From Ornatilinea sp. (lineage in GTDB: Bacteria > Chloroflexota > Anaerolineae > Anaerolineales > Anaerolineaceae): 64,000 bases of DNA. The stretch lies in contig JAHDQE010000016.1 in the NCBI GenBank assembly GCA_018433975.1, positions 1 to 64,000 of the forward strand, written 5' to 3'. Under the pieces are notes generated by a model. That model saw only the letters and a program-made list of their open reading frames with translations, was not told the DNA's origin and did not search any database. Made by a program: the position numbers and the translations under genes. Below are positions 4,506-62,450 of the stretch, piece by piece (within the stretch, counting starts at the first letter, position 1; every line of letters begins with the position of its first letter).

Positions 4506-6512
4506 TTAGGAGTCGGCGACGTTGGCTTTGTAAAGCGGGCGATAGTCGGCAACAAAGATGGAAACAAAGTGGCGGGCTTTGATGCGGATTTGATCGTTGG
4601 TGAACAGGGCACCGTTGAGCTGGTTGTCGGCCAGGAAGATTTCCGGCATGAGGCCGAAGCGTTCAGCGAGGACGATGGCCGGAGCCAGGCGCGGATCGGC
4701 CACCGCAGCCCAATCGGTAACATCGGTCCAGTCCGGAACCGTGATGACGTCCCCGTATTCTCCGCGCTGCATGTTCTCAGAATGAATGTTGGCGGTGTGT
4801 TCCAGGTTGGGGTACAACAGCTGCATGCCGGTGAGACGGAGGGCACGCGGAACCAGAAGATACTTTGCATCGAGGGCCAGTTTGGGGGCGGTGCCGCCCG
4901 AGGCAACGACCATGCTCTGGCCGTAAATGGCGGTTGAAGCTGCCTCCCAGGAAGAAGAACCCAGGGCAGCCGTGCCGAGGTTGGAATGGTCGGCATGAAA
5001 AACGTTTTTGGTGTCGGCCATGACCGGACCGGCTCCGGAGTTGGCGGTGAAAATGGCAGCTACCAGGTTAGAAATGCGGCGCAGGCCGGAGCTGGCTAAC
5101 TTCTGCGGGTACTGGCGGAGCTTGTGAGTTTCGTCCCGCTCGAACATCTCCAGGGTCAGACCGATGTAACCGCCGTACTTGGTCCAGCTGGCCGTTTCGG
5201 GGCTGTCGGATACGTCCAGCTCGGTGTAGGGTCCGCCTTCAGCTACGGAGGGCAGCAGGGTGACTTCACCCACCAGAACACCGGTGAGGGATTGCAGAGA
5301 GTTGAAGTGCTCGACGGACACCACCGGTTCCCACCAGCGGTAACCGGCACGCCCCAGCTCCTGCCATTTCTGGATGATGAGCTTGTTGAGGGCGTTCTTG
5401 AGCACACCGGGAAGGCTGGCGGTGGTGCTGGCAAACTGGACCCGGGAAGGATCGTACCCACCGATGAAATCATAATCCCCGGTCATGCCGAGATAGAGTT
5501 CCCGGATGCCGGACAGCCGGGCCGGGCTGACCTGCTGCAAGCCTTCGGGGCGCTCGGCTCCGAGCAGGTCATGAATGGCGGCGGAGATTTGATCTTCACT
5601 GGTGAACATGGCGGAGATGTTGGGACCGTGAACCGACTGCCCGGCGGTCAGCTCACTGACCATCTGGCGGCTGTCTTCGATGGCGGCCTGCAGCTCCGGC
5701 GCGGTGAAGATGCGGTCCTTGAATTGGGCGCGGACCCGCTCCGCAACGGGGGCGGGAAGGTGAGAAGAAGCCAGGGCCGAATCTAACAGGTAACCGCACA
5801 TGGAAAGCCGGACCTGCCGGGCTTCGGCGGCTTCCTGTTCAATGGCCTGCTGGCGGGCCGTTTCGTTGAGCAGCTCGCGGACCGCGGCCTGGTCTTCGGT
5901 AAGCTGCTGCTGCAGCGCCGCGGCCTGCGGCGCAGGGACAGGCGCAGCCTGGACTGCAGCAGGCGGCGCGGCGGGTTCTTCGACGGTAACGGGGGGTTGA
6001 GAAGTGGGGGGCATAGTTCCTCCTTGGGGGTAAGTTGAATTCAACGCCCGGAGGAAAGCTCCACCCCGGGCGGGGTCCATAACCAGATCGATGGATAAGA
6101 CTTTGAGAATGTTGGTGACGTTCTTTCCGCTGGATGTGAAAACCACATCGGCGGAGAAGCCGACATTGGGATTTGCTGCAGATTCTTCTTCGAGAACCTG
6201 TTTGCCCAGCTCAGCCAGGAGCGGCCCGGAGGGCCCGACCGGCTTGAGCTGGAGCTTGATGCCCTGGTGTTCCTCGTCCCACTCCGGGGAATGGCAGTGA
6301 CCGGCCAGGTCTCGAATGGAGTGACCAAACCAGGAATGATCGATGAAACACTCGGCCTGATCCCAGAGCTGAACCGAAGCCCGGAGGACTTCGGCAGAGA
6401 AATCCCAGCCGTTGCCGGTGCCGGCCGTAATGGCGAGGATCTCGAAAGATCCGGATGCGTTGACCGTGCCGGAGCCGGTCAGGGTTTCGCGGTGTTGGGT
6501 GGTTTCGGGCAT
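4506..6512 (-). CDS. fused phage prohead protease and major capsid protein
   Basis: This 668-residue protein starts at an ATG with a perfect AGGAGG site. Residues 1-160 look like a prohead protease: His59 in FIDHSWFG and Ser120 in GFSADVVF are candidate catalytic residues, and VLSIDLVMDPARGGAF is the typical end of that domain. Residues about 165-235 are a Pro/Ala/Gln linker that may act as scaffold. Residues about 300-668 are capsid-like (SLPGVLKNALNKL, KYGGYIGLTLEMFERDE, then VFHADHSNLG), closest in feel to Mu gpT-type heads. After assembly the protease would cut the scaffold from the shell. The fusion is visible; the exact fold is inferred. Confidence 0.7.
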   Translation of the reverse strand: MPETTQHRETLTGSGTVNASGSFEILAITAGTGNGWDFSAEVLRASVQLWDQAECFIDHSWFGHSIRDLAGHCHSPEWDEEHQGIKLQLKPVGPSGPLLAELGKQVLEEESAANPNVGFSADVVFTSSGKNVTNILKVLSIDLVMDPARGGAFLRALNSTYPQGGTMPPTSQPPVTVEEPAAPPAAVQAAPVPAPQAAALQQQLTEDQAAVRELLNETARQQAIEQEAAEARQVRLSMCGYLLDSALASSHLPAPVAERVRAQFKDRIFTAPELQAAIEDSRQMVSELTAGQSVHGPNISAMFTSEDQISAAIHDLLGAERPEGLQQVSPARLSGIRELYLGMTGDYDFIGGYDPSRVQFASTTASLPGVLKNALNKLIIQKWQELGRAGYRWWEPVVSVEHFNSLQSLTGVLVGEVTLLPSVAEGGPYTELDVSDSPETASWTKYGGYIGLTLEMFERDETHKLRQYPQKLASSGLRRISNLVAAIFTANSGAGPVMADTKNVFHADHSNLGTAALGSSSWEAASTAIYGQSMVVASGGTAPKLALDAKYLLVPRALRLTGMQLLYPNLEHTANIHSENMQRGEYGDVITVPDWTDVTDWAAVADPRLAPAIVLAERFGLMPEIFLADNQLNGALFTNDQIRIKARHFVSIFVADYRPLYKANVADS

Positions 6513-6983: not shown

Positions 6984-7487
6984 ATGGCCTATCGAAATAA
7001 GACTTACGTTTCGTTTGACGGAGATAAAGACATTCACTATTATCGGCTTATGCGTGCATGGAAACAAAGCGACCATACTTTATTTAATTTTTATGATGCT
7101 CATGATCTAAACACTGCTCGCGATACTAGTTCTGAGGTCTCAATAAAAGCCCAATTAGCTGAACGTATGCGCAACTCGAAAACTTTTGTACTTTTAGTTG
7201 GTGAGCATACACAATATCTTTACAAATTCGTTCGTTGGGAGATTGAGCAAGCTTTAAATCGAGATTTTCCAATAATTGTCGTAAATCTAAACGGCAAACG
7301 ATATATTGACGAGAATAGATGTCCCCCCTTGCTACGTAATGAATTAGCCATCCACATATCTTTTAATGCTTTAATCATGCAATATGCTCTTGAGAATTGG
7401 ACATCTTCCCACTTAATGTATCGTTATAAAGGTAAAACAGGACCTTATTATTACAAAGAATCAGTTTATAAAAATCTTGGCCTATGA
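6984..7487 (+). CDS. thsB: TIR-domain protein, Thoeris ThsB-like
   Basis: A 167-residue protein of the TIR-like DUF1863 (ThsB) type. It starts KTYVSFDGDKDIHYYRLM, has an SKTFVLLVGEHT strand-helix and a conserved WE pair (W85-E86) in KFVRWEIEQAL, the position of the catalytic glutamate in ThsB-type TIRs. In Thoeris the TIR protein senses phage infection and makes a nucleotide signal from NAD+ that activates ThsA. The next gene overlaps by ATGA (7484-7487) and is a macro-domain membrane protein, which points to the type II Thoeris layout. The start has GAAAGGA upstream, after promoter-leader copy 1. Activity is inferred from family and context. Confidence 0.8.
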   Translation: MAYRNKTYVSFDGDKDIHYYRLMRAWKQSDHTLFNFYDAHDLNTARDTSSEVSIKAQLAERMRNSKTFVLLVGEHTQYLYKFVRWEIEQALNRDFPIIVVNLNGKRYIDENRCPPLLRNELAIHISFNALIMQYALENWTSSHLMYRYKGKTGPYYYKESVYKNLGL

Positions 7488-8464
7488 ACGCTACTCAGTT
7501 TTGTTTAATCTTGAAAAAGTGGCTATGCAATCTCATCTCTATTCGTTCTGGAACTGTACTATTAAATTTATTTGGTGCACTTTGGCTTTGTATTGAGATT
7601 GCTAATTATTTTTTCCCCGAAACACAACTTGCTATCATACTTCCACGAACTTGGTGGGTATTTTTGACTATGGGAATCTTTATTGCAGTCGCAATTGCCT
7701 TTCCGAAATTTCGGATGTCGCATAAATTAAAGGGACGTGATGTAACAATTGAAATCGCAGTTGGCAATATTTTTGAATTTCCCGGTACATTGGTTATAGG
7801 CTCTAATACTACATTTGATACTGAAATTTCGGAGCAATTAATTTCCGAAAATAGTATTCAAGGACAGTATTCTAAACGTTATTATAGTGACGAAAAACAA
7901 CTTAATAGAGAGATTGAAAGTCAATTGGAAAACATACCTGGAGAAACACTTTCAGGCAACCGTGTGGGGAAAAACATTAGGTACCCAATGGGAACAGTTG
8001 TAAGACTCAATCCTCGAGGTTCAGCAGCTTATTTCCTTGCAATAGCACATGTAAATGAGCATGGTGTTGCTTCGAGCAAATATGAAGATCTACAAGATTC
8101 GTTAGCAAAACTATGGGTTTTTATAGGTGAACATGGGAGTAAAGATTCTATTGTCATGCCAGTCATGGGTACAGGATACGGCCGATTAATACAGCCAAGA
8201 GAAGAAGTCGTGCAAGAAATTGTAAAGTCATTTGTAGCAGCTTGTGCAGATATGGTATTCTGCGACAAACTTACAATTGTTTTGTATTCCAGAGACGTGG
8301 AAAGACATCAAATATCCTTTGAAAAACTTAATGAGTATGTAAAATATGTATGTGACTATACAGAATTTACATCTTCCGATGGTTCAAGACGAGGCCATGC
8401 TGTTGAATACGCAATCCCTTATCCATCCGATTCCGTTTTAGGCAATGGGGATGTAGCGCAGTAA
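7484..8464 (+). CDS. thsA: two-TM macro-domain effector, type II Thoeris ThsA-like
   Basis: A 326-residue protein. Two membrane helices lie at about residues 23-43 and 54-74, followed by a macro domain of the DUF6430/ThsA type: VTIEIAVGNIFEFPGTLVIGSNTTFDTE, then IRYPMGTVVRLN and VMPVMGTGYGRLIQPREEVV, the glycine-rich loops that bind ADP-ribose-type ligands. In type II Thoeris this protein is the membrane effector that responds to an ADP-ribose-derived signal from the TIR partner. It overlaps its TIR gene by 4 nt and both are AT-rich compared with flanking DNA, consistent with acquisition as a unit. Stop at 8464 abuts a degenerate REP/RAYT remnant. Confidence 0.8.
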   Translation: MNATQFCLILKKWLCNLISIRSGTVLLNLFGALWLCIEIANYFFPETQLAIILPRTWWVFLTMGIFIAVAIAFPKFRMSHKLKGRDVTIEIAVGNIFEFPGTLVIGSNTTFDTEISEQLISENSIQGQYSKRYYSDEKQLNREIESQLENIPGETLSGNRVGKNIRYPMGTVVRLNPRGSAAYFLAIAHVNEHGVASSKYEDLQDSLAKLWVFIGEHGSKDSIVMPVMGTGYGRLIQPREEVVQEIVKSFVAACADMVFCDKLTIVLYSRDVERHQISFEKLNEYVKYVCDYTEFTSSDGSRRGHAVEYAIPYPSDSVLGNGDVAQ

Positions 8465-11920: not shown

Positions 11921-12472
11921 ATGCCCGATTATCGCCGCGTCTGGTCGCCGGGCGGGACCTATTTCTTCACCGTGGTTACCCACCAGCGCCGTCCAATACT
12001 GATCGAAGCCAAAGCCCGCCGGTTGTTGCGGCAGGCCTTTCTACACGCCAGACAAAATGCAGGGGCCTTCCGGATAGACGCGCTTTGCCTGCTCCCGGAT
12101 CATTTGCATTGCATCTGGACCCTGCCGGAAAACGACTGCAATTACGCCACCCGTTGGAAGATCATCAAAGCCTATTTCAGCCATTCCTATCGCAAACAGG
12201 GAGGAGCTTCCGGAGCCTTGAGCGAATCCAAAATCAAGAAAGGCGAGCTTGGAATCTGGCAGCGCCGGTATTGGGAACATCTGATCCGCGACCGGGAAGA
12301 CCTCTACCGGCATGTTGACTACATCCATTACAACCCGGTCAAGCACGGCCTGGTCCAATCGGTCGGTGAGTGGCCCTGGTCCACCTTTCACCGTTATGTG
12401 CGCGAAGGATACTACGCCTCGGATTGGGGCGACAAGGATTTCAGCCCGGTTGAAATTGGTTCAATCGAATAA
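11921..12472 (+). CDS. REP-associated tyrosine transposase (RAYT, TnpA_REP)
   Basis: A 183-residue protein of the IS200/IS605-related Y1 transposase family. It shows the N-terminal WSPGGTYFFTVVTHQRRPIL, the metal-binding HxH-type motif in LLPDHLHCIWTLPENDCNYATRW, and the RAYT signature WQRRYWEHLIRDREDLYRHV followed by YIHYNPVKHGLV. Such proteins nick and join REP hairpins as single strands. A REP of matching family lies 37 nt upstream and many more are scattered nearby. Length is about normal. It appears intact, and at least two decayed 5' copies are present (8474, 9351). Confidence 0.9.
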   Translation: MPDYRRVWSPGGTYFFTVVTHQRRPILIEAKARRLLRQAFLHARQNAGAFRIDALCLLPDHLHCIWTLPENDCNYATRWKIIKAYFSHSYRKQGGASGALSESKIKKGELGIWQRRYWEHLIRDREDLYRHVDYIHYNPVKHGLVQSVGEWPWSTFHRYVREGYYASDWGDKDFSPVEIGSIE

Positions 12473-24791: not shown

Positions 24792-25032
24792 AAAAAGGAA
24801 CCCTCCGGCGCCGCCCAACACCGGCACCAACAGGCCATGATTTTTCTTGTATCACGGTCCGTTTTCCGGGTTTTATGTCATAATAAGAGTAATTCGCCCC
24901 GCGGATAACACAGGCTGTTGGTGATCCGGGACAACCTGTTTTTTAAGTTCCAATATCTGCCGGCAAAATCAATCCTCTTGTTCTGGCAGGATCAAATTCA
25001 TAAGTGCAATCATTAAGGAGAAATAAAAAAGT

Positions 25033-48774: not shown

Positions 48775-48984
48775 TGATCTGCTTTGAGTTTGTCATGACG
48801 GCAGTCCCCTTTCCGGGCCGACCCTTTTGATTTTAAATTCCGGTGATGGAGGGCTTGGGTTTTCATGTATTGGGGTTCACTGTGGCGGGGCTTATCCCAG
48901 AGGGAGGCGGCGGCGCGGTGCTTTGTGTCAGTGAGCGCGGCTGGGGATTTATATTAGCAAGCAACCGGAGCCATTCCCGGCGGC
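48775..48984 (+). repeat. T-arm-like repeat copy B and upstream arm of module copy 17
   Basis: About 48775-48875 carries CCGGTGATGGAGGGCTTGGG preceded by ATTTTAAATT, shared with 51715 and 60190. 48905-48984 is the GC-rich arm GGCGGCGCGGTGCTTTGTGT and TTAGCAAGCAACCGG of the promoter module. Confidence 0.5.
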
Positions 48985-49182: not shown

Positions 49183-50319
49183 ATGAAAAATAAAGGGTTG
49201 GTAAAAACATTTTTCTTCATATTACTTTTGGCGTTATCTGCAAAGGCTTTCCAATCGCATACACCATCTCAAGACTCAAAATATGGCACGCTCTATTTTC
49301 CGCTACCAAATGGCAGACTTGCTTTCATGTCTGCAGATTGTCTAATTACGGATTCAAAGTGCCCTGAACCCAAATCCACTTGGTTTCCAGTTAGAGCAAG
49401 CCAGTGGACAACACTGAGTTGGTCACCTGATGGCACAAAGGCATTTGTTGTGGTAGCAGGGAACAAATCCGATTCGATAGGTGTTGAAGAAGATGATGAA
49501 TTATTTTTACTTAACCCCAAAACCTATTCTCTTAAGTCGTTAATTCTCATGTCATATATAAATGATGCATCTTGGTCACCAGACGGAAAGTGGTTGGCAG
49601 TTGCAGGGGTGAAAGAAGGCCATGACGCAGCAACTACAGATGTTCAAATTGCATTATCCGAAATTTTTATTATTTCTCCGGATGGTAAATCAATAGTTAA
49701 TTTAACCGATGGTTTACACGGAATGAAGCTTCATCTTTCATGGTTAGATCAAGACACAATTCTTTTTGAAGTAGACGATTACCCTAATGGCTGCGGCACA
49801 TATTCCTTTGATATTCATGAAAAGACCTGGGTTTCCTTACTCGAAAAGCCAGATTGTTATACTTTTCCTCAGCCCTCTCCAGATGGCAAGTTGATTGCTT
49901 ATGGAGGCGTCAAAGGAGATAATGACAACGAATTATTTATGATGAATTCGGATGGGACAGACAAAACATTATTAGCGGAGTTAGACACCCTGAGTGTACG
50001 GCCTGTTTGGTCTCCAAATCAAGAATGGATTAGACTCGACACCATAGACAAAAGAATAAACTCATCGATTTTTATTATTTTCCCAGATGGGACAGGACTG
50101 CAAAATGTCTATCAAAGTGAAAACTTTGCCCGTGTAGCTTGGGCTCCAATAAACGAATCATATTTGTTGATCAGCGAATTTGATCAAGGATCTGTATCAA
50201 AATTACTGGGTATCAAAATTCCAGATGGAAAGGTTAGAATCTTATCCATTTTCGATGAAAATCATCCTCCTCATTGGGTGTCATGGCGCCCACCATTAAG
50301 CACGATTTCCAATCCATAA
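49183..50319 (+). CDS. secreted TolB/WD40-like propeller protein
   Basis: A 378-residue protein. ATG 49183 has GGAG 8 nt upstream; an earlier start at 49156 would lie against the module tail. An N-terminal hydrophobic signal (TFFFILLLALSAKAF) is followed by propeller repeats: LSWSPDGTKAFVVVAGNK, ASWSPDGKWLAVAGVKEG, IISPDGKSIVNLTDG, QPSPDGKLIAYGGV and PVWSPNQEWIRL. This is the TolB/PD40 'SPDGK' pattern. It likely binds a ligand or protein at the cell surface. Confidence 0.78.
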   Translation: MKNKGLVKTFFFILLLALSAKAFQSHTPSQDSKYGTLYFPLPNGRLAFMSADCLITDSKCPEPKSTWFPVRASQWTTLSWSPDGTKAFVVVAGNKSDSIGVEEDDELFLLNPKTYSLKSLILMSYINDASWSPDGKWLAVAGVKEGHDAATTDVQIALSEIFIISPDGKSIVNLTDGLHGMKLHLSWLDQDTILFEVDDYPNGCGTYSFDIHEKTWVSLLEKPDCYTFPQPSPDGKLIAYGGVKGDNDNELFMMNSDGTDKTLLAELDTLSVRPVWSPNQEWIRLDTIDKRINSSIFIIFPDGTGLQNVYQSENFARVAWAPINESYLLISEFDQGSVSKLLGIKIPDGKVRILSIFDENHPPHWVSWRPPLSTISNP

Positions 50320-51636: not shown

Positions 51637-51745
51637 AGGTCTGTAGTCCGAGATCACTTCAAAAATCTTTTAGCGGGAGGCGCCCCCTGGCTGGATGCGT
51701 CTCTTTTTTATGATATTCCGGTGATGGCAGGCTTGGGTTCTCATG
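51637..51745 (+). terminator. T-arm-like repeat copy C with intrinsic terminator
   Basis: Terminator stem GAGGCGC (51677-51683)/GCGTCTC (51697-51703), followed by TTTTTT. Downstream, CCGGTGATGGCAGGCTTGGG is shared with 48840 and 60193. The rest of 51434-51924 holds no gene. Confidence 0.6.
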
Positions 51746-51924
51746 TGCCGGGGCAATCCCCGGGATTGGTGGGACGGGTTCCGGCAAGCTGCGCCGCAGG
51801 GAATGGCGAGAAGACGGTCACGGTGCGCATCTGGGTGCCGGGGAATGAGGGACCGCGGGAGCTGTTGGTGAGGTGTGGAAGATCTCAGAATACAAGAGCT
51901 CTCTGATTTTGAAGGTAGTCCTAT

Positions 51925-56221: not shown

Positions 56222-56322
56222 CACAGTGTGCACTCGACAAGTACGGGCAACCTAGTATTTTTGTGCCAGTGAGTGCGGCTTGGGGTTTGTATTGGCAAGC
56301 GGCCGCAGTTTTTAGCGGCGGC

Positions 56323-56494
56323 TTGTATTTGGAAAAGCCGGGTCATATAATGGGATTACTTATTAGTGGGTAGTTTATTGGTGGATGGTGAGCAGCGAGC
56401 TTGCCATTTTTGTTTCTTCATCTGCAAATGATCTGGTTAATATCCTTCACGGGTTTGTTGTAAAGAATGATTGCAGGTTATCCAATAGTTGGGC
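56323..56494 (+). promoter_or_regulatory. promoter-leader module, copy 21 (full length)
   Basis: -35 TTGTAT (56323-56328) in a CAAGCGGCCGC...GCGGCGGCTTG hairpin, 17-nt spacer, -10 TATAAT (56346-56351). Leader stem ATGGTGAG (56385-56392)/CTTGCCAT (56400-56407), then TTTTGTTTCTTC. Tail GCAGGTTATCCAATAGTTGG, ending GTTGGGC (56488-56494). The upstream arm begins at the stop codon of the nuclease gene (GTCTAACACAGTGTGCACTC). Confidence 0.92.
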
Positions 56495-56908: not shown

Positions 56909-57072
56909 AAAGCGGCGGAGAATAAATATTGATAAAGGAAAATGATAGGCGGCCAACAAAGCGTATATCCGACAGATGGGAGTAGCTCCGAAGGCCCGCG
57001 GCGCGGTGCTTTATGCCAGTGAGTGCGGCTTGAGCTTTGTTCTGGCAAGCAACCGTATTCTTTCCCGGAGGC

Positions 57073-57231
57073 TTGCATTTCCAAAATGAGGGGAATATAC
57101 TATTTTTACTTATGAGTGGGGCAGTTTATTGGTGAGTAGCCAGCTTGCCATTTTTTCAATGCGGAGAATCTGTTTTATACCTTTCACTGGGATGTTCTAC
57201 AGAATAATAGCAGCATATCTAATCGTTAGGC
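57073..57231 (+). promoter_or_regulatory. promoter-leader module, copy 22
   Basis: -35 TTGCAT (57073-57078), 17-nt spacer, -10 TATACT (57096-57101). The hairpin is shortened (CAGCTTGCCATTTTTT remains). The tail ends exactly GTTAGGC (57225-57231), 21 nt before the ATG. The upstream arm, from GGCCAACAAAGCG at about 56951, includes GCGCGGTGCTTTATGCCAGT. Confidence 0.9.
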
Positions 57232-58972: not shown

Positions 58973-59125
58973 AACGATCGAGGAGCGGTTGAAAGAAAAG
59001 TTCCTCAACACCGCGTGCACCGGATAAGCGCGGGCTGCGCCTGAGAGTAAGCGGCGCGGTTTGGTTGTGGTAGTGTTCGCAGCCTGGGTTTGGAGTTGCA
59101 AGCCGCCGGAGTATTTGGTGGCGGC

Positions 59126-59154
59126 TTGCGTTTGTGGAGGGTCGGGAATATACT
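59126..59154 (+). promoter_or_regulatory. promoter of the module, copy 24 (variant leader)
   Basis: -35 TTGCGT (59126-59131), 17-nt spacer, -10 TATACT (59149-59154). The leader is a variant with GTGGGGTGGTTTCTATGTATG and CTACATTTTCACAG, shared with copy 27 (62958). Confidence 0.8.
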
Positions 59155-59265
59155 ATTAACGGTCGGTCGTGGGGTGGTTTCTATGTATGCTGAACGGGGA
59201 ATTTCCATTTGTTTCTACATTTTCACAGTTCTGTCATATCCTCTCACCTGGCTTGTTGATGGATG

Positions 59266-59325
59266 AAATATGGTGCGGTCGGTCATACCCTGAAGGGCAC
59301 TTAAAAACAACTGCACCCTACGGAC
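59266..59325 (+). repeat. ACCCTGAAGGGCACTTAA repeat, copy 1
   Basis: GGTCATACCCTGAAGGGCAC followed by TTAAAAACAACTGC recurs at 62399 and, changed, at 8620. Here it stands in the leader of the 59361 gene; at 62399 it supplies a stop codon. Confidence 0.75.
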
Positions 59326-59360
59326 TGACTTTTCAAAAGGCCTACTTTAAGGAGAAAAAT

Positions 59361-59945
59361 ATGGCACGATTGACAGCGTCTGTGAGGCAAAGAATCCTAG
59401 AGCAGAACGAAGGTTTCACAACTAGAACATATTATGATGCAAAAAACTTCAGAGAAGAAAGGATATACACAATTTCAGGTGGAATGCTTCATGTACGTTC
59501 TGTAGGAAAAACATCTTGGGCTGATAGCCGTTTTGACAATGAATGGATTGCTAGTGACGAGGAAGCACATAGATTTTTATACAAGCATCAATCAGAAATG
59601 AATCTTGATGAACTGGATATTACTGAAGATAGAAAAAAAGAAATTCGACAGGCAACTTCAATTACAAAACAAAAAATAAATAAGTTAGAAGATGAAGATT
59701 TAGCAATTGAGAGTGATAGCTACTTTAATGAAGATGCAGGTACAACAGATGCCAATGATGACGATATTGTTGTGGCTGTAGGTATGTTACTTATAGCAGG
59801 ATTGGTTTATGGGACTTATGAAGTGGCTCCCTCTATTAATCATTGGTGGCATGATAAGGCCGTACCCAGCCTAAAAAAAATGAAGAATAAGGTTACTGGC
59901 AAAGCAGAAAAAACAGAAGAAGAGACTGAATTAAAAGCAGGCTAA
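59361..59945 (+). CDS. small protein with C-terminal membrane helix
   Basis: A 194-residue protein; ATG 59361 has AAGGAG 6 nt upstream (earlier in-frame starts lie in repeats). Residues 1-55 resemble a compact basic/beta domain (VRQRILEQNEGFTTRTYYD, GGMLHVRSVGKTSWADSRFD). The middle is acidic. A membrane helix (IVVAVGMLLIAGLVYGTYEV) lies at about residue 135-155, and the C-terminus is basic/acidic (KKMKNKVTGKAEKTEEE). No family named. Its stop codon overlaps the left arm of the attC-like site. Confidence 0.6.
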   Translation: MARLTASVRQRILEQNEGFTTRTYYDAKNFREERIYTISGGMLHVRSVGKTSWADSRFDNEWIASDEEAHRFLYKHQSEMNLDELDITEDRKKEIRQATSITKQKINKLEDEDLAIESDSYFNEDAGTTDANDDDIVVAVGMLLIAGLVYGTYEVAPSINHWWHDKAVPSLKKMKNKVTGKAEKTEEETELKAG

Positions 59946-60063
59946 CCCAAGCTGCACCTGACCCGGCGGCGCTGCGCTTCCGCCTTGGTGAGGGTCGGAC
60001 GAAAAATCCGTGCCAGTGGGATCTTGGGTACTCACCGCCGGGCAGGTGAGCACATCGTTATCA
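59940..60063 (+). other. attC-like integron recombination site
   Basis: The stop codon lies inside GGCTAAC (R''-like), then CACCTG (59955-59960), one unpaired A, CCCGGCGG (59962-59969). On the right: CCGCCGGG (60035-60042), CAGGTG (60043-60048) and GTTATC (60057-60062, R'-like). Arms pair perfectly over 6 and 8 bp with one extrahelical base, and the central loop is about 65 nt. This is the layout of attC. The boxes differ from GTTRRRY at one or two bases. Confidence 0.65.
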
Positions 60064-60110: not shown

Positions 60111-60225
60111 AGGTTAGTAGTTCAATCCCACTTTGAGCAGACTTTTTATAATAGGTGCACCTGTTCCAAATGCGCCTCTGTATTTTTAAACTCCGGTGAT
60201 GGTGGGCTTGGGTTCTCCGGTGTCC
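60111..60225 (+). repeat. T-arm-like repeat, copy D
   Basis: GGTTAGTAGTTCAATCCC, then ACTTTTTATAATAGGTGCAC and ATGCGCC hairpin, TATTTTTAAACTCC, then CCGGTGATGGTGGGCTTGGG. It shares the order of parts with 41675, 48775 and 51637. Confidence 0.5.
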
Positions 60226-60293
60226 GGATCCACGGCAGCGGGATCTATTCCGCTGGGGGTGTTTGATTTATGGCTCTTGCGCTCCAGGTAGTG

Positions 60294-60436
60294 TGTAGGA
60301 TGGGTGAAGCGAAACCCATCATCCAACCATTGGAGATTCGCGTCCCTCGTCCCGAAGGGCGGCGGCGTGGTTTGGGTTTGCCAGTGTTCGCGGCCTGGGT
60401 GTGGGGGTGCAAGCGGCCGCAGTTTTTGGCGGCGGC
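60294..60436 (+). repeat. REP variant and upstream arm of module copy 25
   Basis: GTAGGATGGGTGAAGCGAAA with CCCATCATCC (60294-60324) is a diverged RAYT-type REP. Then CGTCCCTCGTCCCGAAGGGC leads to GGCGGCGTGGTTTGG and the AAGCGGCCGC...GCGGCGGCTT hairpin just before the -35. Confidence 0.7.
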
Positions 60437-60609
60437 TTGTATTTGGATAGCCAGAGTCATACAATGTGATTACTTATTTGTGGGGTTATTTATTGGTGAA
60501 TGGTAAGCAGCGAGCTTGCCATTTTTGTTTCTTCACTTGCGGACGATCTGGTTAATATCCTTCATGGTCTTGTTGTTAAAAATAATTGCAGGTTGTCCAA
60601 TAGCTGACC
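60437..60609 (+). promoter_or_regulatory. promoter-leader module, copy 25 (full length)
   Basis: -35 TTGTAT (60437-60442), 17-nt spacer, -10 TACAAT (60460-60465). Leader hairpin ATGGTAAG (60500-60507)/CTTGCCAT (60515-60522), then TTTTGTTTCTTC. Tail CAGGTTGTCCAATAGCTGAC (ends 60609). Confidence 0.88.
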
Positions 60610-61411: not shown

Positions 61412-61491
61412 TGCGTAGCGGCGCGGTGCTTTGTGCCAGTGAGTACGGCTTGGGTTTTAACTTGCAAGCAGTCGCTGTTGTTGGCGGCGGC

Positions 61492-61640
61492 TTGTATTTG
61501 GGAACCCAGGTTCATATAATGTGATTACTTATTAGTGGGGTTGTTTATTGGTGAATGGTGAGCTGTGGGTTTGCCATTTTTGTTTTTCCATCCGCGGAGA
61601 ATCTGTTTAATATCCTTTACGAGGTTGTTGTGAAGAATAC
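61492..61640 (+). promoter_or_regulatory. promoter-leader module, copy 26
   Basis: -35 TTGTAT (61492-61497), 17-nt spacer, -10 TATAAT (61515-61520). Leader stem ATGGTGAG (61555-61562)/TTTGCCAT (61570-61577), TTTTGTTTTTCC follows. The tail keeps GATATTAAAC-like TTTAATATCC and GTTGTTGTGAAGAATACC, then passes directly into the gene's ribosome site. Confidence 0.88.
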
Positions 61641-61658: not shown

Positions 61659-62426
61659 ATGGCTTGGAACATAAAAGGTGGAGTAATAATAATTGGATCG
61701 CTTTTGTGGCAAGACTATCTATACAAAGATGATGACACTGTAAGGCTTGATTGGAGAAACTCTCATTTAGATATTGAAAATAAAATCCCTGTGAAAGTTC
61801 CCATCAGGTATGGCAGAAAATCGAATGGCGGGATTATCACCATGGTTTTTTCAAACCAAATGGCGAGGAGAAAAGGGATTGGATATGTCGTTCCATTCAA
61901 AAATGCAATTAATAGTCTAAATGAATTGCTTTGTGAATGTATAGCCTTATCAAAAGCAGAAGGTATGCAAGGAGATTTCGTAACTAATTGGGGGGTATTA
62001 GCTTATCTGCTAAACGATTCGATAATTGAAGCAGAGACAAAGAAAGAAATAGTCAAGTTATTTAGACAACAGAAAAACGAGTACCAGAAAAAAGTTAAAG
62101 AGGAAAAGAAATTTAAAATTTCTCAGTATAAAGTTAACGCAGAACGAAGTTGTGTTACCAAATCGCTAAAATTAGATATTAACTGGGTTACCCCAGTTAC
62201 AGATAGTGATAAAAGCAAATTAGATGAGTTGCATTTTCTATTAGCGACGCCTACCAAACCAACAGACGAGACATCTTGCGAAGCAATTGCAGAGACCGTC
62301 AAAGCTGATACAAAGCGAAAATACTTCGATAATAATCGCGCCAACGGAATCATCACGTATGATGATTCCGAAATAGATAAATATAAAAATGAATATTGGT
62401 GCGGTCATACCCTGAAGGGCACTTAA
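61659..62426 (+). CDS. uncharacterised protein, weakly GGCT-like start; C-terminus in a repeat
   Basis: A 255-residue soluble protein after AAAGGAG. The start GGVIIIGSLLWQDYLYKDDD resembles the glycine loop of gamma-glutamylcyclotransferase-like folds, followed by VPIRYGRKSNGGIITMVFS and GIGYVVPF. The assignment is weak. The middle is rich in Lys/Glu. The last residues WCGHTLKGT and the stop codon are encoded by the dispersed repeat at 62399, so the original C-terminus may have been replaced. Confidence 0.55.
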   Translation: MAWNIKGGVIIIGSLLWQDYLYKDDDTVRLDWRNSHLDIENKIPVKVPIRYGRKSNGGIITMVFSNQMARRKGIGYVVPFKNAINSLNELLCECIALSKAEGMQGDFVTNWGVLAYLLNDSIIEAETKKEIVKLFRQQKNEYQKKVKEEKKFKISQYKVNAERSCVTKSLKLDINWVTPVTDSDKSKLDELHFLLATPTKPTDETSCEAIAETVKADTKRKYFDNNRANGIITYDDSEIDKYKNEYWCGHTLKGT

Positions 62427-62450
62427 AAACAACTGCTCTCTACGGGCTAC
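62399..62450 (+). repeat. ACCCTGAAGGGCACTTAA repeat, copy 2 (supplies a stop codon)
   Basis: Identical to copy 1 at 59266 over CATACCCTGAAGGGCACTTA and AAAACAACTGC. The frame of the 61659 gene ends at the TAA inside it. Confidence 0.75.

Follow-up and report, generated by a model that had tools for sequence, protein, structure and literature searches.

Positions 59940–60063 (+) of the window, the 64,000-nt stretch of DNA analysed here, most probably form an integron attC site, which would have served for recombination at the 3' end of a cassette carrying the open reading frame (ORF) at 59361 and is now either a relic or usable only in trans. We assign this reading a probability of about 0.9. 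The site is complete, overlaps the stop codon of the 59361 gene, and was recovered by a covariance model built from attC sites of the same phylum.

Anatomy of the site at 59940–60063

The sequence-only reading had described an R''-spacer-stem-loop-R' arrangement overlapping the stop codon of the 59361 gene, and a base-by-base check found each named element in its place. The gene and the parts of the site are as follows.

59361–59945 (+): putative cassette gene, 194 aa (ORF; single hydrophobic stretch by eye)
59940–60063 (+): complete attC site, R''-L''-loop-L'-R' (covariance model R1 score, base-by-base pair check)
59940–59946 (+): R'' box GGCTAAC, covering the TAA stop codon (59943–59945) of the 59361 gene
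59951–59969 (+): left arm, consisting of GCT, extrahelical G59954, CACCTG, extrahelical A59961 and CCCGGCGG
59970–60034 (+): loop, 65 nt
60035–60051 (+): right arm, consisting of CCGCCGGG, CAGGTG and AGC
60057–60063 (+): R' box GTTATCA, with the exchange point expected after G60057 (sequence and the cleavage rule in PMC9892861)

The left spacer spans 59947–59954 and the right spacer 60049–60056 (8 nt). CACCTG (59955–59960) is fully paired with CAGGTG (60043–60048), and CCCGGCGG (59962–59969) with CCGCCGGG (60035–60042), leaving A59961 as the one extrahelical base that had been noticed in the left arm. The check added a further pairing, GCT (59951–59953) with AGC (60049–60051), which makes G59954 a second extrahelical base. 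The stem comprises 3 + 6 + 8 bp, and all of its pairs (17/17) are standard. With GTTATCA in place of GTTRRRY as R', only 5/7 positions of R'' and R' pair. When the boxes were compared with RYYYAAC and GTTRRRY, the AAC and GTT were present, while GGCTAAC and GTTATCA both deviate from the consensus; in the alignment of phylum sites, several attC sites also have the GGCTAAC form of R''. The site lies on the same strand as the 59361 gene, at its 3' end. The likeness to attC in order, spacing and stop-codon overlap was borne out, and the orientation and both extrahelical positions (alignment A1) are those of the phylum's attC sites.

If the structure were a transcription terminator or an RNA hairpin at the end of the 59361 gene, attC-like by resemblance, then its position at the 3' end of the gene and its RNA folding energy of -52.3 kcal/mol would be accounted for. 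However, no T run follows the stem (CAGGTGAGCACATCGTTATC; 60043–60062), the RNA fold is ordinary compared with shuffles (z -1.65), and the R boxes, the spacer lengths, the extrahelical positions and the words CACCTGAC and CAGGTGA match attC sites of the phylum. We regard this explanation as very improbable. The bottom strand folded as DNA was likewise unremarkable (z -1.69), as were the energies of two other attC sites in the same genome, and folding energy was dropped as an attC discriminator. The evidence for an attC site is the arrangement of its parts, not folding energy.

A stem of this kind might also have arisen by chance as an inverted repeat, or be a REP-like palindrome, given a contig with a REP-associated transposase and several palindrome families. 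REP-like repeats lie nearby at 60295, 62852 and 63064, and the transposase gene at 11921–12472 (NF047646) is clear. Yet the whole site, unlike REP repeats, is single-copy in the genome, with no further copies found; a stem of its type (6 bp + 1-nt bulge + 8 bp around a loop of up to 110 nt) turned up a single time on the 72,133-base contig, where 60 dinucleotide shuffles predict 0.017 per contig; and it has attC boxes and is placed on a stop codon. Such an origin is extremely improbable. As for the repeats themselves, the GTAGGATGGGTGAAGCG...AAACCCATCATCC palindromes at the three positions may be the REP elements of the transposase, a REP-associated tyrosine transposase, and a second palindromic repeat, GGTGCGGTCATACCCTGAAGGGCACTTAAAAACAACCGCACC, occurs at 59280–59326, 62402–62448 and C93:58244–58291, in copies more than 90% identical.

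Covariance-model score and attC sites elsewhere in the genome

Scoring with an attC covariance model had been proposed as a check on the site. The model used (R1) was built in this analysis from 24 sites adjoining integron-integrase genes of the same phylum, the candidate being left out, rather than taken from IntegronFinder. In the R1 alignment, 95.6% of the cells at the R and L pairs are paired, and covariation was 0.447 vs 0.126 when shuffled and was lost once the partners were slid. A search of the contig with all filters off returned 59940–60062 (+) at 30.1 bits (E 7.7e-5), while the runner-up on the same contig reached 9.3 bits. The candidate was third among six R1 matches in the 5.26-Mb genome (E 0.0057), and its score is modest compared with the 45–78 bits of many attC sites adjoining integrases. 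A strict GTTRRRY/RYYYAAC scan of the contig gave no convincing site and missed 59940–60063 because R' deviates. A loose structural scan for attC did no better than reversed-sequence controls, and the covariance model was therefore used. An Rfam search of the 64-kb window returned no match.

The other R1 matches in the genome included C96:47727 and C96:48822 (the top two), C1:47280 and C13:47141. Contig C96 has the order attC-gene-attC-gene-attC, with a weak third site at 49800 (16.2 bits), and so holds an attC cluster (at least two sites) without intI; C1 and C13 each have a lone site, which on C13 directly follows a stop codon. A search of the assembly for integron integrases found none, the best match to TIGR02249 scoring 36.5 bits vs a cut-off of 265. 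This negative result counts against the attC reading, as do the assembly's 130 contigs and its estimated contamination of 9.45%. The tyrosine recombinases that were found did not exceed this cut-off, and the one examined closely, on C67, resembles Xer models more than the integron model. Nor was a complete integron, with intI and attI beside an array, found in the assembly. The sequence-only reading had named a poor attC score together with no integrase acting on the site as what would speak against it; the score stood clear of the contig background, and the search for an integron integrase in the assembly was negative.

Integron integrases (TIGR02249, E <= 1e-30) occur in 54/400 genomes of the phylum, and are present in the order too. 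Within the family, R1 attC sites were found in 24/61 genomes, and a full-length integron integrase in 2/61, plus two remnants. Many genomes with attC sites and few with integrases fit either integron loss that left attC relics or delivery from outside. In one relative (G104; C3:111797-116495; L129, L133), an attC cluster adjoins a broken integron-integrase fragment; to judge from its sequence, this locus is an integron caught in decay.

Putative cassette remnants, leaders and the phage head-gene cluster

A left-half attC profile was applied just past the stop codons of the contig's 55 plus-strand genes, with a score of at least 13 counted. Such left halves followed 6/55 genes (59940, 65909, 64765, 56216, 56951 and 59003), compared with a null mean of 0.44 and a maximum of 3 in 2000 draws; with the same profile, none was found past stops on the opposite strand. 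The remnants, including two of lower score, are as follows.

24813–24838 (+): attC left half after the 24396 gene, 12.5 bits
50324–50393 (+): degenerate attC after the 49156 gene, left half 7.8 bits
56216–56284 (+): degenerate attC overlapping the stop codon of the 54683 gene, left half 15.3 bits
56951–56976 (+): attC left half after the 56603 gene, 13.7 bits
59003–59088 (+): degenerate attC after the 58250 gene, left half 13.4 bits

Several left halves run on into a common right part, ...TTTGTGCCAGTGAGYGCGGCTTGGG, which reads as a putative degenerate attC right half that has lost the GTT of R'. The other attC-like sites on contig C107 are degenerate, and 59940–60063 is the sole intact one. 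Since left halves lie past the stops of 6/55 plus-strand genes, the 59361 gene is probably cassette-derived, and we infer that it is one of several such genes on the contig and arrived as a cassette. The cassette origin put forward by the sequence-only reading thereby gains support, both from these left halves and from the other attC sites in the genome. The 59361 protein had no Pfam, PADLOC or NCBIfam match and no homologue in 150 related genomes or among the genome contigs searched. Upstream of the gene no clear core site was seen, so no excisable cassette was delimited.

A leader of 150–240 nt with promoter-like sequence recurs in more than 20 copies on C107, C117, C93, C13, C95 and C105. 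Fifteen copies aligned on their terminal core (GTTRGGC-like) have a mean pairwise identity of 0.63 in the ten bases before the core, and identity falls to about 0.28 from ten bases past it; the start codon mostly lies 25–36 nt past the core. In the window these diverged, promoter-bearing leaders lie at 48912, 54482, 56260, 57000, 57986, 60379, 61420, 63139 and other positions, each preceding a gene. The leaders around the site, together with a remnant of a portal gene, are as follows.

56260–56494 (+): leader repeat ending at core GTTGGGC
57000–57231 (+): leader repeat with terminal core GTTAGGC; ATG follows after about 30 nt
59065–59160 (+): repeat and promoter-like leader (TATACT) upstream of the 59361 gene (repeat copies; promoter by eye)
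60171–60242 (-): phage portal gene, 3'-end remnant sharing 87.5% identity with the intact copy
60379–60609 (+): leader repeat upstream of the 60674 gene
61420–61640 (+): leader repeat upstream of the 61659 gene

The leader-core-gene layout resembles what a cassette inserted at an attI-like core might look like. The leader end is unproven as an attI because it had no match in the DNA around the integrases of relatives, although a few bases are similar to the stretch preceding intI in G418; the leader motif also had no match among the genome and viral contigs searched. That the contig is a cassette platform, with each cassette behind its own leader with an attI-like core (GTTRGGC) and the main platform inside the head-gene cluster, is doubtful. 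If it were so, the platform could take up cassettes, express each separately and perhaps have them packaged.

The array is flanked by a portal gene (contig 67351–68844, -) and a protease-capsid gene (4506–6512, -), and about 60 kb of plus-strand cargo here parts portal from capsid. In relatives the two genes are usually adjacent, with gaps of 26–320 bases in many, and each was found in about 33–35/81 genomes. The head-gene cluster consists of portal, terminase and protease-capsid (window 4506–6512 (-); L007:3351–6399 (-)), was found in most of the family, usually with its genes side by side and almost always in a single copy, and has the look of a domesticated phage or GTA-like cluster. Within the cargo there are remnants of the portal 3' end at 48826–48911, 51693–51752 and 60171–60242, and also at C117:42273 and C95:28124, as though each insertion at the portal end had brought the 3' end along or made a second copy of it. 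Genes for Thoeris ThsB (TIR), a ThsA-type macro-domain protein and AbiTii lie at the cargo's two ends (window 6984–8464; L007:981–1889).

Present activity and comparison with known systems

Herein, we describe how the site would have worked. The bottom strand of 59940–60063 would be extruded as a hairpin, whose R and L boxes an integron integrase would bind via the extrahelical bases. Strand exchange would then take place at the G|TT of R', i.e. at G60057|T60058, by analogy with known attC sites and their cleavage rule G|TTRRRY; phage-borne attC sites recombine this way with IntI1 (PMC9892861). The 59361 gene would have been delivered as a cassette by an integron since lost or located elsewhere, and the attC site today would be either a relic or a substrate solely for an integrase acting in trans.

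It could also be that the attC is still functional and undergoes shuffling in trans, through an integrase that the assembly lacks or that comes from outside. Its stem is fully paired with both extrahelical bases present, integrases exist in the family (the two full-length cases) and in the order, and the assembly is a draft of 130 contigs (97.8% complete). On the other side, the R' box is imperfect, there is no second intact attC on the contig, and the neighbouring attC remnants are mostly degenerate. We regard continued shuffling as rather unlikely. The site is most likely a relic or usable in trans only, because it is the only intact attC on the contig, has an imperfect R box, and has no second core bounding the gene. 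The imperfect R boxes and the missing 5' core argue against ready excision of a cassette, and present-day mobility is unsupported because the search of the assembly gave no integron integrase and no partner core lies 5' of the gene. If the attC reading is correct, integrons had at least some share in delivering genes to this cargo island, where Thoeris and AbiTii defence genes are found as well, and an integron relic sits inside a conserved phage head-gene cluster, in a bacterial family with common attC sites and rare integrases.

Compared with the attC sites of integron cassettes, 59940–60063 shares the R''-L''-L'-R' order, spacer lengths, extrahelical bases, covariance score, stop-codon overlap and location on the gene's own strand, and differs in its R' (GTTATCA, not GTTRRRY), its 65-nt loop and its solitary position on the contig. 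It is like a CALIN in being an attC without an integrase, as is the run of three sites on C96 (one of them weak), but it is unlike one in being a lone intact attC; IntegronFinder 2 demands at least two attC sites for a CALIN, and its authors grant that single ones can be true (PMC9024848). As in phage integrons and attC clusters (PMC9892861), the attC adjoins phage genes. Those cases lie in phage genomes, whereas here the contig is cellular, its head genes are ones that a bacterial family has conserved, and portal and capsid enclose the attC-bearing cargo. In conclusion, an attC without a detected integron integrase in its genome is of an already known kind, and what is unusual is its context, a cargo of about 60 kb in which promoter leaders recur, set within a phage head-gene cluster that is conserved.
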